A stretch of DNA of 43,662 nt from a virus: IMG/VR virus record IMGVR_UViG_3300035130_000092, positions 1 to 43,662 of that record; one strand, 5' to 3'. Each line of letters starts with the position of its first letter. Position 1 is the first letter of the stretch. Of this stretch, positions 13,234 through 43,662 are shown piece after piece. The position numbers and the translations under genes were made by a program. The notes under the pieces were generated by a model. It was not told where the DNA came from, searched no databases, and saw only the letters and a program-made list of their open reading frames with translations.

Positions 13234-13605
13234 CAGGCCTCCGTCGTCCTTGATCGCGCCAATCCACTCGCTCGCCTCGCGGCGGCTCATCGCGGCAATC
13301 TGCGCATCGCTCGGGCCGTGCGTGCCATACGGGCCGATGCCGTCGAAAATGTCGAACCACGCGTCTTGCGCGCGACGCAAGAATGCTGCCTGCTTGGCCG
13401 TAATCGATCCCTTGGCGGTCGCTTTGCCGTACCGCTTCGCGTTGCCGTCGGCGGCCATGCGCTTGACCGACCGGTCCGAGTCCTCCTGCGCCTGGCAGTC
13501 CACGTGCGCTGCCCCCCACCCCTTGCGCCACTCGATCTCTTCTCCGACCTGGATCGGCTGGTGGCAGTGCTTGCAGCGCCCGCGGTATTTCGCTCGTATC
13601 GTCAT
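13231..13605 (-). CDS. Zinc-ribbon protein, first gene of the leftward unit
   Basis: A 124-residue protein from ATG 13605. Residues 1-38 form a ribbon with CKHCHQPI, a turn, and then HVDC, similar to small PARP-like or LIM-like zinc knuckles found in phage proteins. Residues 65-124 hold ITAKQAAFLRRAQDAWFDIF and a conserved-looking helix near the C terminus (DAQIAAMSRREASEWIGAI). As the first gene after the leftward promoter it would be made earliest. A regulatory or takeover role fits its position but is not shown by sequence. Confidence 0.75.
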   Translation of the reverse strand: MTIRAKYRGRCKHCHQPIQVGEEIEWRKGWGAAHVDCQAQEDSDRSVKRMAADGNAKRYGKATAKGSITAKQAAFLRRAQDAWFDIFDGIGPYGTHGPSDAQIAAMSRREASEWIGAIKDDGGL

Positions 13606-13624
13606 GTCTGCGTCCTGTCGTGGT

Positions 13625-13645
13625 TGCCGGCTTCCCTTTCCGGCA
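13625..13645 (-). promoter_or_regulatory. Hairpin at the 5-prime end of the leftward transcript
   Basis: TGCCGG (13625-13630) pairs with CCGGCA (13640-13645) across a 9-nt loop. The likely start of transcription from the promoter at 13651-13678 lies at its right edge, so the RNA would begin with this stem, followed by ACCACGAC and the ribosome binding site. Confidence 0.55.
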
Positions 13646-13650
13646 CTCTC

Positions 13651-13678
13651 ACTATAGCCCGCGGCCGGGGGTAGTCAA
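13651..13678 (-). promoter_or_regulatory. Leftward sigma70-type promoter
   Basis: Read on the minus strand: TTGACT (13678-13673), a 16-bp spacer, then TATAGT (13656-13651). It sits 46 bases ahead of the first leftward gene and would drive the whole early unit. Confidence 0.78.
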
Positions 13679-13696
13679 GGCAATTATCCAGTTTTT

Positions 13697-13759
13697 TATA
13701 CCTGGTCTTTAAGGACGTGCAACGGTCCTGCTATACCATTATACCTGCGGTTGGTATAA
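13697..13759. promoter_or_regulatory. Operator-like TATACC repeats between divergent promoters
   Basis: TATACC occurs at 13697-13702, 13732-13737 and 13740-13745, and inverted as GGTATA at 13753-13758. The last two form a perfect 7-bp inverted repeat, TTATACC/GGTATAA, around a 7-nt centre. An AGGAC/GTCCT pair lies at 13712-13716 and 13725-13729. The region is AT-rich against a GC-rich genome. A dimeric repressor or activator site is inferred. Confidence 0.62.
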
Positions 13760-13768
13760 AGATTCCTG

Positions 13769-13798
13769 TTGACAGACGACCCCGTGAAACCCTATGCT
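13769..13798 (+). promoter_or_regulatory. Rightward sigma70-type promoter
   Basis: TTGACA (13769-13774), an 18-bp spacer, then TATGCT (13793-13798). Transcription would start near 13805, just before the long hairpin, and run into the replication, packaging and structural genes. Confidence 0.72.
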
Positions 13799-13813
13799 AC
13801 CGCGCGACATGGC

Positions 13814-13915
13814 CAGCCCCTCACTCAGTCGAGCGGAGACGTGGATGCCCGCCGCGGCGGCTCCGTCTGCGGATCGGGACCATGTCCGTCCGCGTCTCCC
13901 TCGATTGGGTGAGGG
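13814..13915 (+). ncRNA. Long-stem structured leader of the rightward transcript
   Basis: Bases 13814-13845 pair with 13885-13915 in a 31-bp stem with one bulged C (13832) and no mismatches. All four departures from Watson-Crick pairing are G-U in the rightward RNA; on the other strand they would be A-C clashes. The 39-nt apical region adds small hairpins (13847-13858; 13860-13871). The element starts about 9 nt after the predicted transcription start and ends 27 nt before the first gene. RNase III processing, antitermination (HK022 put-like) or translation control are possible; none is shown. The stretch 13606-13942 holds no convincing gene. Confidence 0.8.
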
Positions 13916-13942
13916 GCACTGCCCGGAACGGAGCGACTCCCC

Positions 13943-15247
13943 ATGGCGTCATACTGGCTGCAGCTCGACCTCGATCTCCTGACGTCGCCCCGCTGGCTCG
14001 GCACCAACCCTTGGACGCGGCACTTGTATATGGCGCTACTCCGGCGCTGCATCGAAGAGCGTTCCGGGGAACTCGCCCGGTCCGAGTGGACCGATCGCGT
14101 CGCTCACAGTCTCGTCGGGGCCGCGGCCGGCGACGACGCGCCCAGCGCGGCCGCGATGCTCGAGGAATTGGCTGGGCCCGCCTGTCACCTCGTCGATCTG
14201 GCCGAGGAGACCATCGCCGTACACGGCTTCGACGAGCGCTACGGTAAGATGATGGCGAAGGCCGATCGTCTCCGCGACATGGCGAAGAAACGGCAGCGCC
14301 GTAAACGGGAGCGTGACGGGCGCGTGACCTCACCATCTTGTAACGCACCTGTCACGCGTGACAACAGCGTGACTAACGCACCTGTCACGCGTGAAAAGCG
14401 TGACGTCACGGACCTAGACGTAGACTTAGACGTAGACGTAGACGTTAGAGCCAGACATATAAAATCCCCGCCGTTGACGGGCGACGTTTCTGTTACTGGA
14501 CAGTCGCGTGACACGGCGGGGAAGGCGCATATCGCGCCCGAAACGGCAAACGGCGAACAGCGACGGCCACAACCAACGGCACCACGGCCCTCTGGCGACC
14601 CGGAGATGGACAGGAAACACCAGCTCCCGGACCTCACGCCGACGACGGAACCGGCGAACGGCATCCTTGAGGGATGGTTAGAAGCGGAGGAGGGGACGTT
14701 CAGGGAGCCCATCGTCTTGCGACAACTCGTGAACGTTCGAGACCACAACGACCCGCTCACGCTGCTCGCGCACATGCGTGATCTCGAACTCATGGAGGAC
14801 GCTCTGTCCAAGTGCTCCCTGCTCATGAAGCGCCTGAGCACCGCAGGGATCCGTCCCGGAGAAGAGGCGATCGAGTGGGCGCGCGACCAGTTGAATCACG
14901 ATGGCCGGCCTCGTGGCGGGAAACCCGAATCGCCGGCCGACGTCCTCGCCTCTCTCAGGAGCGCCCCTGCGGTCGATCCCGACTTCGCGATCGCCGCTCT
15001 GGATGGCCTCTTGACTGGGTGGACGGCGCCCGACGACACGAATCACGTGGAGCAGCGCGCAGCGATCAAGCTTGCGCTCGCGGAGAAGCCTCTGGCGACA
15101 CTGGCATGGGCAATCAAGATCAACAATGATCTCCCCACGGACGACCCGCTTACGAGGCTGGCCGAGTTCTGTTCGAACGGGAAGACGCCGCCGAAGACGC
15201 ATTTGGCCGCAGCCCGGAAGATGGCGGGGCTCCCAGCGAGAGGGTAG
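13943..15247 (+). CDS. Replication initiator / replisome organiser with embedded iterons
   Basis: A 434-residue protein. The N-terminal 120 residues (YWLQLDLDLLTSPRW, then HLYMALLRRCIEE and a basic helix KKRQRRKRERDG) match the winged-helix N domain of phage O/DnaD-type initiators, which bind the origin and load helicase. Residues about 125-175 are low complexity because the DNA there carries repeats: six GCGTGAC plus one GCGTGAA, a 21-bp direct repeat, and five TAGACG hexamers giving a DLDVDLDV run. The C-terminal 200 residues are helical with no known motif. It is the first gene after the structured leader, with GGAG upstream. As in lambda O, the origin appears to lie inside the initiator gene. 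Confidence 0.75.
   Translation: MASYWLQLDLDLLTSPRWLGTNPWTRHLYMALLRRCIEERSGELARSEWTDRVAHSLVGAAAGDDAPSAAAMLEELAGPACHLVDLAEETIAVHGFDERYGKMMAKADRLRDMAKKRQRRKRERDGRVTSPSCNAPVTRDNSVTNAPVTREKRDVTDLDVDLDVDVDVRARHIKSPPLTGDVSVTGQSRDTAGKAHIAPETANGEQRRPQPTAPRPSGDPEMDRKHQLPDLTPTTEPANGILEGWLEAEEGTFREPIVLRQLVNVRDHNDPLTLLAHMRDLELMEDALSKCSLLMKRLSTAGIRPGEEAIEWARDQLNHDGRPRGGKPESPADVLASLRSAPAVDPDFAIAALDGLLTGWTAPDDTNHVEQRAAIKLALAEKPLATLAWAIKINNDLPTDDPLTRLAEFCSNGKTPPKTHLAAARKMAGLPARG
14311..14512. other. Probable replication origin (iteron array)
   Basis: GCGTGAC occurs at 14311, 14322, 14356, 14367, 14398 and 14506, with a GCGTGAA variant at 14389. A 21-bp exact repeat lies at 14341-14361 and 14374-14394. The palindromes GTCACGCGTGAC (14351-14362) and CGTGACGTCACG (14399-14410) lie within. 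Five TAGAC(G/T) hexamers (14415-14444) and an AT-rich CATATAAAAT (14455-14464) follow, a layout typical of initiator-binding iterons beside an unwinding element. Confidence 0.72.
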
Positions 15248-17143: not shown

Positions 17144-17282
17144 AGCCTGGCCCTACGGTCGCGTGTCGCTCAGGGACTTTCTGTTCGGCGGGGCGTCAGC
17201 CTACACGGGCAACGGGCGCCGGCGCAAGCACAAGCGCAACCGGCAGGGGGACTGCTCGCGGGCGTGGGGGTTGCGAGGGTAG
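17100..17282 (+). CDS. Small basic hypothetical protein
   Basis: A 60-residue protein from ATG 17100 behind AGGGGAGAG. The N-terminal 35 residues (RELTIDEVMERRAWPYGRVS) are helical and the C terminus is very basic (GRRRKHKRNRQG). A longer upstream frame was rejected because it lies in the Cys-rich gene. The family was not recognised. After it, 17283-17363 is non-coding and AT-richer, with no clear promoter. Confidence 0.6.
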   Translation: MAKRELTIDEVMERRAWPYGRVSLRDFLFGGASAYTGNGRRRKHKRNRQGDCSRAWGLRG

Positions 17283-17363
17283 GGGGTCGGCAACTCAAAA
17301 TGCACGCTTGGTATGAACCGTGGGATACTATTTGCGTATATTCTCACGGGTTAGGAAGTTAGG

Positions 17364-18614
17364 TTGCGCGATCGCGTAGTAGAACTCAGGCGGGTCAAGG
17401 CCTCGGACCTTCTCCCGCATCCGCAGAACTGGCGCACTCACCCGAGCGCCCAGCGCAATGCGATGAGGGCCGTGCTCGACGAGGTCGGTTATGCGGGCGC
17501 GCTCCTCGCGCGCGAAACACCGGAAGGCCTGATGCTGATCGACGGCCACCTGCGTTCTGAGGTCACCCCCGACGAGACGGTGCCGGTCCTGGTGCTGGAC
17601 GTGGACGAGGCAGAGACGAAGAAGATCCTGGCGACCTTCGATCCCATCTCCGCGATGGCCGAGGCCGACAAGGGGAAGCTTGACGCCGTTCTCCGAGACA
17701 TCGACACCGGGAGCGAGGCGCTCGCGAAGATGCTGGAGGATCTCGCCGAGTCGAATGGGCTGCTCGAGCAGATCACGACGGAGGAGGGTCCGGAGCCGCA
17801 GATCGACAAGGCCGCGGAAATGAAGGCGAAGTGGGGAACGGAGCTCGGGCAGCTCTGGAAGATCGGCGAGCACCGCCTGCTCTGCGGCGACGCCCGCGAT
17901 CCCTTCTGCGTCGAGCGCGTCATGGCCGGGGAGAAGGCGTCTTGCATCTTCACTGACCCGCCGTACGGCGTCGGGATAGGCGCGAAGAACCGCCTGCTCA
18001 ACAGCGTTCAGGAGGCCGGGCGCGCGCTCAACGACATCGAGGACGACAACCTCACGCCGGAGGAGTTGAAGGCGCGTCTCCTGCCAGCGTTCGTCAACGC
18101 GCGCAAGATTGCAATGGCGGAAGACTGCACGCTATTCATGACCGCACCACAGGGCGGCGAGCTCGGCATGATGATGATGATGATGATGGCCGAGGCCGGC
18201 CTCCCGATCCGCCATGTTCTGATCTGGATGAAGAATTCGCCGACGTTCTCGATGGGCCGTCTCGACTACGACTACCAGCACGAGCCAATCCTGCTGACCT
18301 GGGGGAAGCGGCACAAGCGGCCGATGCGCGGCGAGCACAGGACATCTGTCTGGCAGATAGACAAGCCGCGCGCGAGCGACGTGCACCCGACGATGAAGCC
18401 CGTGGCGCTCGTGGCAAATGCACTGCTGAACAACAGCGACAAGGGCGACGTCGTGTATGAGCCTTACTCTGGTTCGGGGACTTGTCTCATCGCCTGTGAG
18501 CAACTGCGACGAAAATGCCGCGCGATCGACAAGGCACCCGAGTTCGTCGCCGTCGCCCTTCAGCGCTGCACCGACGCCGGCATGTCCTGCCGGCTGGAGA
18601 ACCGAGATGGCTAA
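17364..18614 (+). CDS. ParB-domain DNA methyltransferase (beta-class N4/N6)
   Basis: A 416-residue enzyme with a likely TTG start at 17364, eight bases after AGGA. Residues 1-100 are a ParB/sulfiredoxin-like domain (DLLPHPQNWRTHPS, then LMLIDGHLRSEV). Residues 150-416 are an amino-methyltransferase: TDPPYGVG (motif IV) comes before YEPYSGSGTCLIACE (motif I, AdoMet binding), the order of the beta class. It would methylate adenine N6 or cytosine N4, perhaps to protect phage DNA. Seven Met codons in a row (18168-18188) encode residues 269-275. It overlaps the small terminase gene by eight bases. The ParB-plus-methylase fusion is common in phages. Confidence 0.87.
   Translation: MRDRVVELRRVKASDLLPHPQNWRTHPSAQRNAMRAVLDEVGYAGALLARETPEGLMLIDGHLRSEVTPDETVPVLVLDVDEAETKKILATFDPISAMAEADKGKLDAVLRDIDTGSEALAKMLEDLAESNGLLEQITTEEGPEPQIDKAAEMKAKWGTELGQLWKIGEHRLLCGDARDPFCVERVMAGEKASCIFTDPPYGVGIGAKNRLLNSVQEAGRALNDIEDDNLTPEELKARLLPAFVNARKIAMAEDCTLFMTAPQGGELGMMMMMMMAEAGLPIRHVLIWMKNSPTFSMGRLDYDYQHEPILLTWGKRHKRPMRGEHRTSVWQIDKPRASDVHPTMKPVALVANALLNNSDKGDVVYEPYSGSGTCLIACEQLRRKCRAIDKAPEFVAVALQRCTDAGMSCRLENRDG
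18168..18188. repeat. (ATG)7 microsatellite
   Basis: Seven ATG triplets in frame give a poly-Met run in the methyltransferase. Slippage would change the number of Met residues without a frameshift. Confidence 0.9.
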
Positions 18615-23560: not shown

Positions 23561-24486
23561 TTCTCAGGGAGTTCGGCAAGTACCTGGCGATGGAATCGGG
23601 AGCACTCGACCGGTGGTTCGCGCAGGGCGCGGAGATCGAGGTCGACAGCGCGGATCTCGTGGACTGGGAGGCCTCCGACACGAACGCAATCTACGCGGGC
23701 CCGGTTGGCGACGCGATCAAGCGAGGTGCCCAGATCTCTTTGCCGGCGCGCGGGGTCGCGGCGGTCCCGATCATGGGTATGCTCAACAAGCGCTTCAGCT
23801 ATGGGTCGTTCATGTCCTCGTATATCAACATCGCGTTCGCGGTGACGGCCGCTGCCCGCGACCAGAAGATCAGCACGATTCTGCTGAAGATCGACTCGCC
23901 CGGCGGATACGTGCACGGGATGGCCGACGCCTCCGACGCGATCGCGCGCGCGCGGGCGGTGAAGCCCGTGGTCGCGCAGATCGACGACATGGGTGCCTCT
24001 GCCGCCTATGATCTCGCCTCGCAGGCGAGCATGGTCTACGCGAACCGATCGGCAATGGTCGGGTCGATCGGGACGCTCGGCGTGATCTACGACGTTTCGA
24101 AAATGCTCGCAAACATCGGGGTCAAGGCCGAAGTCTTCTCGACCGGCCGGTACAAGTGGACGGGCGTCGAGGGCACGAGTCTCACGGACGAACAGCGGGA
24201 GTACGTGCAGTCCGAGGTCGACCGCATGGGCGATGACTTCGTGGCGGACGTGGCGCGCGGGCGGCGCCGGTCGGTGGAAGACGTCGCGAAGCTCGCGACG
24301 GGGCGGACCTGGTTCGCGGACGAGGCGAAAAAACTCGGACTTATCGACGAGGTCCGCTCCTACGAGTCGACGGTGACCGAGCTCGGTTCAAACGTCACGG
24401 CCGCGGCGGCTCGCGCGGAACGCAACCGCCGGTTGCAGCTCGAGGCCGCGCGACTCGCTCAGCGAAAATCCGCACAAAGGGCTTGA
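23557..24486 (+). CDS. S49/SppA-type prohead protease
   Basis: A 309-residue protein from ATG 23557 (ATGA overlap). The core has VPIMGMLNKRF, TILLKIDSPGGYVHGM and QIDDMGASAAYDLASQA, in which Ser of GAS is the likely nucleophile, followed by AMVGSIGTLGVI. Then comes GRYKWTG, whose Lys would be the base of a Ser-Lys dyad. This is the S49 (signal peptide peptidase A-like) type that replaces the U35 protease in many phages. The C-terminal helix (RAERNRRLQLEAARLAQRK) may act as a scaffold, since no separate scaffold gene is seen; the capsid protein has its own N-terminal delta-like coil. The -35 box of the next promoter overlaps the stop codon. Confidence 0.92.
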   Translation: MILREFGKYLAMESGALDRWFAQGAEIEVDSADLVDWEASDTNAIYAGPVGDAIKRGAQISLPARGVAAVPIMGMLNKRFSYGSFMSSYINIAFAVTAAARDQKISTILLKIDSPGGYVHGMADASDAIARARAVKPVVAQIDDMGASAAYDLASQASMVYANRSAMVGSIGTLGVIYDVSKMLANIGVKAEVFSTGRYKWTGVEGTSLTDEQREYVQSEVDRMGDDFVADVARGRRRSVEDVAKLATGRTWFADEAKKLGLIDEVRSYESTVTELGSNVTAAAARAERNRRLQLEAARLAQRKSAQRA

Positions 24487-41936: not shown

Positions 41937-41948
41937 GCTTCTCTCCCG

Positions 41949-41983
41949 CCGGGCCGGGCCTCTGCTCTGCATGCCCGGCCCGG
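41949..41983. terminator. End hairpin 1 of convergent operons
   Basis: CCGGGCCGGGC (41949-41959) pairs perfectly with GCCCGGCCCGG (41973-41983) across 13 bases; a G-T pair extends it. On the plus strand TCTTCC follows. A likely terminator, though without a strong T-run. Confidence 0.65.
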
Positions 41984-41993
41984 TCTTCCAATA

Positions 41994-42026
41994 CACAACC
42001 GCCCCGGAACACCCGGGGCGGTTGTG
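41994..42026. terminator. End hairpin 2 (bidirectional)
   Basis: A perfect 14-bp stem (41994-42007 with 42013-42026) with a 5-nt loop between the convergent genes that end at 41936 (plus) and 42049 (minus). No T-run on either side; GC-rich phages often terminate this way. The gap 41937-42048 holds no gene. Confidence 0.7.
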
Positions 42027-42364: not shown

Positions 42365-43662
42365 TCAGCTTGTACTCCCCACTCCGTCGACCAGCTCCAC
42401 ATGCGAGTCGCCCCTCCCGGAGACAATCGTGTAGAGCACCTGGAAGCCCCGGGACGTCGCGTCCTCAATGATCTGCCGCTGATGCGAAGGCGAGAGCGTC
42501 TCCCCGTCGTCGATGAGCAGGAGCTTCACCGGCCGGTCCTGACTCGCCGCCATCGCGATCGCGGCCGCGACCCTGATCGACGCCGAGCGCCCCGCCTGCG
42601 AAAGCGGCTTGCCCCCGTAGGTGAGTCCGTCTTCCGTGATGTCCAGACCCTCGACCGGCAGTCGCTCCGCCGCGCTGGCCTTCGCCTCCGCCTCCCGGGA
42701 ATCGACGTCGTCGAGCTGCGCCTGGAAGGCGCCGGCCAGCGTCTCCGCGTTCGCGAGCTCTTCCGCGAGCTCGCGGTGGCGGGCGTTGTCGCGGATCTTC
42801 CGGTTCGCCTCCTCGATCCCTGAGATGCGGGAGACGATGTCGTTGACGTCGGCGGGCTCGAACGCCGCGAGTGTGCGCGTTGCCTCCATGCGTGCCGATA
42901 TCGCGACCGTCCTCTGCTTCTCGAGGAGTTCGAGGCGCTCTTCGGCCTCGGCCAGTTCCTCGCGCAGCCGCTCGATCGTGGCTTCCATGTCCTCAACGTT
43001 CGCGGTAGCGTCCTTCTCCGCGCGCCGCGTCTCCGCGACTGTCCGCTCGAGTTCCGCGCCGTTCTCGTTGTGGCCCTGGCGTTTCCGGAGCTCTGCGGTG
43101 AGAGCCGCGACTGACTCCTCCTCCTCGGGCAAATCCGGGTTGAACGGGCACGAGTCGAGCGCGCCCTTCAACCGCTTGACCTCCCGGTTCGCATCCCGGC
43201 GGGCGGTGACCGTGTCGTCGCGCTCTTGCGCGAACGGCGAGAGATCGACGCCCGACAGTTCGGAGACTATCCGCGCCTGTTCGCGCGCGTCGAGTTTCAG
43301 GAACTTCACGGGGTCCAGTGCGTAGAAGTCGCAGAATGAGCCGAACAGAGTCTGCGGGGAAGACTGGGGCTTGCCCTTCGCATCCTTGATCACCAACTTG
43401 GCTGAAGGCTTCTTCCCCTTCGCGCGCGTCCAGGTCTTCTCCACGACGTAGCGGGCTCCGTCGTCGCCCCCGAACGTCGCGAGGACGCGGCCTTTCTTGC
43501 TGTTGCCGTGGATGGGCTCGTCCACCGGCTTCGCGTCTCCCCCCGCGAGAGCGAGTTCGAGCGCGCGCAGCGCCGAGGTTTTGCCCGACTCGTTCTCTCC
43601 CCCGATGACGACGACCCCGTCCGGCGGCATCGTGAGCGTGAGGCTGCGGATGCGCAGGACGT
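42365..43662 (-). CDS. SMC/RecF-like ATPase, main part (start at 289)
   Basis: The larger part of the 444-residue ATPase. Walker A lies at the N-terminal end (GGENESGKTSALRALE). The middle (about residues 165-330) is a coiled coil broken by short turns (VEDMEATIERLREELAEAEE). Near the C terminus are a signature-like LSQAGRSASIRVA and Walker B LLLIDDGETLSPSHQRQ. This layout is that of small phage SMC-like ATPases, which resemble RecF/RecN/SbcC heads without the long arm. They are often encoded with RecT and YqaJ-type exonucleases. It may hold or process DNA ends. The 5-prime end continues at position 289 in the other copy of the redundancy. Confidence 0.87.
   Translation of the reverse strand, partial: VLRIRSLTLTMPPDGVVVIGGENESGKTSALRALELALAGGDAKPVDEPIHGNSKKGRVLATFGGDDGARYVVEKTWTRAKGKKPSAKLVIKDAKGKPQSSPQTLFGSFCDFYALDPVKFLKLDAREQARIVSELSGVDLSPFAQERDDTVTARRDANREVKRLKGALDSCPFNPDLPEEEESVAALTAELRKRQGHNENGAELERTVAETRRAEKDATANVEDMEATIERLREELAEAEERLELLEKQRTVAISARMEATRTLAAFEPADVNDIVSRISGIEEANRKIRDNARHRELAEELANAETLAGAFQAQLDDVDSREAEAKASAAERLPVEGLDITEDGLTYGGKPLSQAGRSASIRVAAAIAMAASQDRPVKLLLIDDGETLSPSHQRQIIEDATSRGFQVLYTIVSGRGDSHVELVDGVGSTS
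43411..43662. repeat. Terminal redundancy, right copy
   Basis: Matches 1-252 with one change (G at 43535 versus A at 125). It supports a circular map of about 43,410 bp. Confidence 0.97.

Follow-up and report, generated by a model that had tools for sequence, protein, structure and literature searches.

The window analyzed here, a viral record of 43,662 nucleotides, begins and ends with a direct terminal repeat of 252 bp (positions 1 to 252 and 43411 to 43662) that is identical at 251 of 252 positions (A125 versus G), so that it probably represents an entire genome, circularly permuted or terminally redundant, whose unit measures ∼43.4 kb. Leftward genes extend from 13605 through the ends of the record to ∼42.3 kb and encode RecE-like and RecT-like proteins, a Holliday junction resolvase, and an AAA protein, while the rightward genes, which occupy 13943 to ∼41.9 kb, comprise a probable replication gene followed by HNH, DNA methyltransferase, TerS, TerL, portal, protease, major head protein, and tail genes. 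The first rightward gene (13943 to 15247, plus strand; 434 aa) matches phrog_2447 (E value 0.0026) and phrog_9474 (E value 0.0053), a weak similarity from which its product is probably replication initiator-like; structure prediction from the single sequence gave a pLDDT of 43. The rightward operon (13.9 to 41.9 kb, ∼28 kb) may be expressed as one unit, with few plausible internal promoters. A second AT-rich gap (17280 to 17363), directly 5′ of the DNA methyltransferase gene, whose TTG start is at 17364, is a possible internal promoter unlike the sigma-70 consensus. At the convergent operon ends, two strong, G+C-rich hairpins without a clear U-tract stand in tandem (41948 to 41984 and 41994 to 42026) and are probably bidirectional terminators.

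Since the two operons diverge from the gap at 13606 to 13942 (337 bp), control of the phage may be centered there. Both of the top sigma-70-like matches lie back to back within it: TTGACA-18-TATGCT on the plus strand (13769 to 13798; 10/12), which has the top plus-strand score, and TTGACT-16-TATAGT on the minus strand (13651 to 13678; 10/12), the best minus-strand match in the window. A match at 24483 ties the plus-strand top score but looks weaker, as its second hexamer is missing the last T. Transcription from the rightward match is predicted to start at ∼13804 to 13807. The AT-richest stretch of this 65% G+C genome also falls in the gap (13681 to 13760) and contains TTATACC/GGTATAA repeats (13696 to 13704 and 13739 to 13747, with a dyad at 13739 to 13745/13753 to 13759) that are candidate operator sites or origin iterons. 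We note that TTATACCTG occurs twice in this stretch (at 13696 and 13739), along with TTTATACC/GGTATAAA arms, that the 7-7-7 dyad TTATACC-N7-GGTATAA stops ∼10 bp short of the −35 element, and that a single copy of a near-DnaA-box, TTATCCAGT, adjoins the stretch.

Between the rightward promoter match and the first rightward gene, the plus strand can form a single long helix of ∼102 nt (13816 to 13917). An outer 5′ arm (13816 to 13833) pairs over 18 bp with an outer 3′ arm (13900 to 13917), and an inner 5′ arm (13835 to 13847) pairs over 13 bp with an inner 3′ arm (13887 to 13899), leaving C13834 as the sole bulge in a 31-bp stem. Atop the inner helix sit an asymmetric loop of 8 nt and an apical hairpin of 12 bp (13848 to 13878), the latter folding on its own no better than chance (z = −1.4). 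Of the 31 stem pairs, 27 are Watson-Crick and four are G-U (13825/13908, 13828/13905, 13842/13892, and 13846/13888), with no mismatches. The earlier note had described just such a stem of 31 bp with one bulge, four G-U pairs, and no mismatch, and exact pairing bears out this composition; the stem that it placed at 13814 to 13845 and 13885 to 13915 (bulge at C13832) exists, but with both arms set 2 nt too low. Its placement of the stem between start site and gene likewise holds, with the distances revised: the 5′ edge lies ∼11 nt (not 9) past the predicted start at ∼13805, and the 3′ edge 25 nt (not 27) before the ATG at 13943. A Shine-Dalgarno-like GGAG on the plus strand (13930 to 13933), 9 nt 5′ of this ATG, starts 13 nt past the stem; this ribosome-binding site is involved in local pairing only and lies outside the long helix.

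The reading frames checked across the stem look noncoding by codon usage, on which ground a coding role for the overlapping open reading frames (13809 to 13982 and others) was rejected. No intrinsic terminator (a G+C-rich stem with a U run) was found in 13500 to 14100, and no Rfam family matched either strand of the window above its curated gathering score. Two alternative pairings, of the 5′-end GACATGG with CCATGTC (13880 to 13886) and of GCTCCGT (13860 to 13866) with ACGGAGC in the Shine-Dalgarno region, were rejected because 7-bp matches are expected by chance on a rough estimate, and we judge both unable to span the intact helix.

The minimal hairpin folds as RNA at −79.3 kcal/mol on the plus strand (z = −8.6) versus −63.0 kcal/mol on the minus strand (z = −5.1). 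Folding of 13805 to 13945 against controls, as the earlier note had suggested, also sets the stem apart from chance, with −87.6 kcal/mol (z = −6.9) for the plus strand and −73.5 kcal/mol (z = −2.9) for the minus strand, and the stem region is the energy minimum among all 141-nt stretches on both strands of the whole window. Under a strict stem score, in which G-U pairs count 0.5 and a bulge −3, the stem reaches 26 and the runner-up in the window 16, while the per-genome maximum in 150 order-3 Markov genomes averages 14.5 and never exceeds 18. The stem is thus the longest and most stable in the window and far above chance, a genuine structure and not a chance fold. In a base-rate survey of ∼1.2 Mb of other loci, a score of 25 was reached only at one site in contig L037 and in contig L089, a pattern-selected contig rich in hairpins. 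The latter (L089:1-14115) is nominally viral, carries many long hairpins based on GCGGAGACGCGGAGGCGCGGAG, and is perhaps a repeat-rich bacterial contig rather than a phage.

Each of the four pairs outside the Watson-Crick set reads as G-U in RNA of the plus strand and as A-C in that of the minus strand, in agreement with the earlier observation that the same positions clash when read on the other strand. If a palindrome decayed neutrally, four of four substitutions would be G-U on one strand or the other with a probability of ∼0.001 to 0.05, varying with the transition/transversion ratio. The earlier note took this bias as a sign of selection at the level of a plus-strand transcript; the bias and the better plus-strand fold are both present, but we treat the bias as only suggestive because stems get noticed for being paired and just four changes are involved. 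Independent evidence on the strand comes from the promoter match directly upstream of the stem on the plus strand. Since the stem lies just past the best plus-strand promoter match and the plus-strand RNA folds better, the most economical reading of the sequence is that the stem belongs to a plus-strand leader RNA.

The stem is real and statistically strong and, to judge from its sequence, RNA-like, and the function that we assign to it is a proposal. We hypothesize, with somewhat less than even confidence, that it is a leader hairpin of the RNase III type, through which the lifetime or the translation of the rightward transcript is set. A noncoding structured leader would head the plus-strand transcript of the rightward operon, and the 31-bp RNA helix would form once its 3′ arm had been transcribed. 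The helix would then mark the RNA for processing as a double-stranded signal, with host RNase III the most likely enzyme to cut it; the cut would remove the leader and place a new 5′ end ∼25 to 45 nt before the probable replication gene. The trimmed message would keep its ribosome-binding site free, and cleavage could in this way set stability or translation at the head of the operon. We infer transcription from the promoter match at 13769 to 13798, cleavage, and an effect on expression, and we favor the leader hairpin because the promoter match aims at the stem, the frames checked across it look noncoding, no U-tract terminator is present, and the GGAG is outside the helix. If the element is transcribed and processed, one RNA switch point would head a transcript that may cover about two-thirds of the genome, and a clean, unusually regular substrate would join the known phage leader RNAs, from a phage to which the searched collections hold nothing closely related.

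By analogy, the kind of element proposed is one already described in lambda and T7. RNase III acts on transcripts of lambda, T7, and T3, its effects can be both stabilizing and destabilizing, and a cut by it in the stem of a bacterial 5′ leader (pnp) changes what becomes of the message downstream (PMC5371410). The minimum target reported for the Escherichia coli enzyme, which may not be the host's, is 22 nt (PMC5371410), and the 31 bp with one bulge found here provide more than the at least ∼22 nt of double-stranded RNA called for. Because the helix exceeds this minimum, processing by RNase III, as raised in the earlier note, is plausible. In lambda (N leader) and T7 (early region), as at the locus, double-stranded RNA lies near a promoter, before the first or between early genes. 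However, the helices of those two phages are short and irregular on the strict stem score (7.5 for the lambda N leader and 9.0 for the T7 0.3 leader region, against 26 here), whereas here the helix is an almost perfect 31 bp and its processing is proposed; the present stem is no close look-alike of either. The pnp-type leaders share with it a stem in the 5′ leader, but they are nonphage and were demonstrated by experiment, whereas the phage stem is known from sequence alone.

The main remaining rival, which we consider unlikely, operates at the level of DNA: the AT-rich stretch (13681 to 13760) would melt or bind an initiator as part of a replication origin, and the inverted repeat, beside the initiator gene, would be a hairpin signal or a protein site in DNA, whether single-stranded or duplex. 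That the AT-richest stretch, with its repeated TTATACC sites, lies immediately upstream of the stem and that the neighboring gene weakly resembles replication initiators are both consistent with an origin, as is the capacity of the stem to fold as single-stranded DNA (plus strand, z = −4.4). The cumulative GC skew also turns at 14 kb, but this is confounded by the switch in gene direction at the same place. A duplex-DNA site would not be expected to favor imperfect pairs that are tolerated by RNA on one strand in all four cases, and the 39-nt gap between imperfect arms is ill-suited to a simple protein-bound palindrome. The hairpin could instead stay uncut and stabilize or insulate the message, blocking 5′-end-dependent decay or fixing the distance from promoter to ribosome-binding site. 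Its position ∼11 nt from the predicted start, with the ribosome-binding site left outside, would suit such a role, which nonetheless also seems to us unlikely because 31 bp exceeds what is needed and, in a host that has RNase III, would probably draw that enzyme.

We consider it very unlikely that the RNA is an antiterminator, either of the HK022 put type or some other nascent-RNA element by which RNA polymerase is modified to read the whole ∼28-kb operon, although it lies directly past the promoter of an operon that possibly spans 13.9 to 41.9 kb and has few plausible internal promoters. The locus and HK022 put have in common a structured RNA placed soon after a phage operon's early promoter, but putRNA consists of ∼70 nt in two stem-loops and is found at both early operons (PMC9378689), whereas here one ∼100-nt hairpin heads the rightward operon only. 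With the leader as query, blastn found only matches with E values of at least 1 in the HK022 genome, and the leftward leader contains no comparable stem and folds as random sequence does (z = −0.5 to 0.1). The put analogy drawn in the earlier note is thus unsupported in shape, in sequence, where nothing notable was found, and in the want of a leftward partner. No boxA-like sequence (YGCTCTT), which in a lambda-type nut site precedes a boxB hairpin, occurs in 13601 to 14300. We give similarly little credence to a new kind of nascent-RNA element, in which a lone ∼100-nt hairpin would alter transcription or the timed processing of a whole replication and structural operon served by one promoter. 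Finally, the stem could be a mobile or repeated element (a MITE- or REP-like hairpin) that chanced to land in the leader and is now decaying, as its inner arm, GCGGAGACGTGGATGC, is similar to GCGGAGACGCGGAGGC, a hairpin family with three members in the unrelated contigs L088 to L090. These contigs were, however, drawn by an inner-arm pattern, which largely imposes the likeness, and by inspection the outer 18 bp are unlike their hairpins. The window holds no second copy, a pattern of both arms had 0 matches in 2.9 million viral contigs, and blastn with the leader found nothing in plasmids and nothing credible in phages; we strongly doubt a mobile origin.

No close relatives of the phage were found in IMG/VR, INPHARED, or PLSDB, an absence that holds within the sets searched, from which records very close to the window's own may be missing. 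Neither 2.9 million viral contigs nor 50,697 phage records yielded a relative of the protein encoded at 13943 to 15247, and a pattern search of the viral contigs found none for the major capsid protein (MCP), portal, and RecE-like proteins. Relatives of TerL in the viral contigs share 27 to 37% identity. The leader is kept at none of the loci found by protein in the viral contigs (first rightward gene, TerL, MCP, portal, RecE-like, and methyltransferase queries), and the tail fiber as a query in genome contigs led to no locus with it. Relatives of the DNA methyltransferase are many, with up to 72% identity in the best segment, and the phages that carry them are otherwise unrelated or distantly related and lack the leader. 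L037 is a viral contig with such a related methyltransferase, and its own long stem (L037:445-534), whose outer helix consists of 25 bp of purine/pyrimidine runs, lies directly 5′ of a rightward open reading frame (533 to 958).
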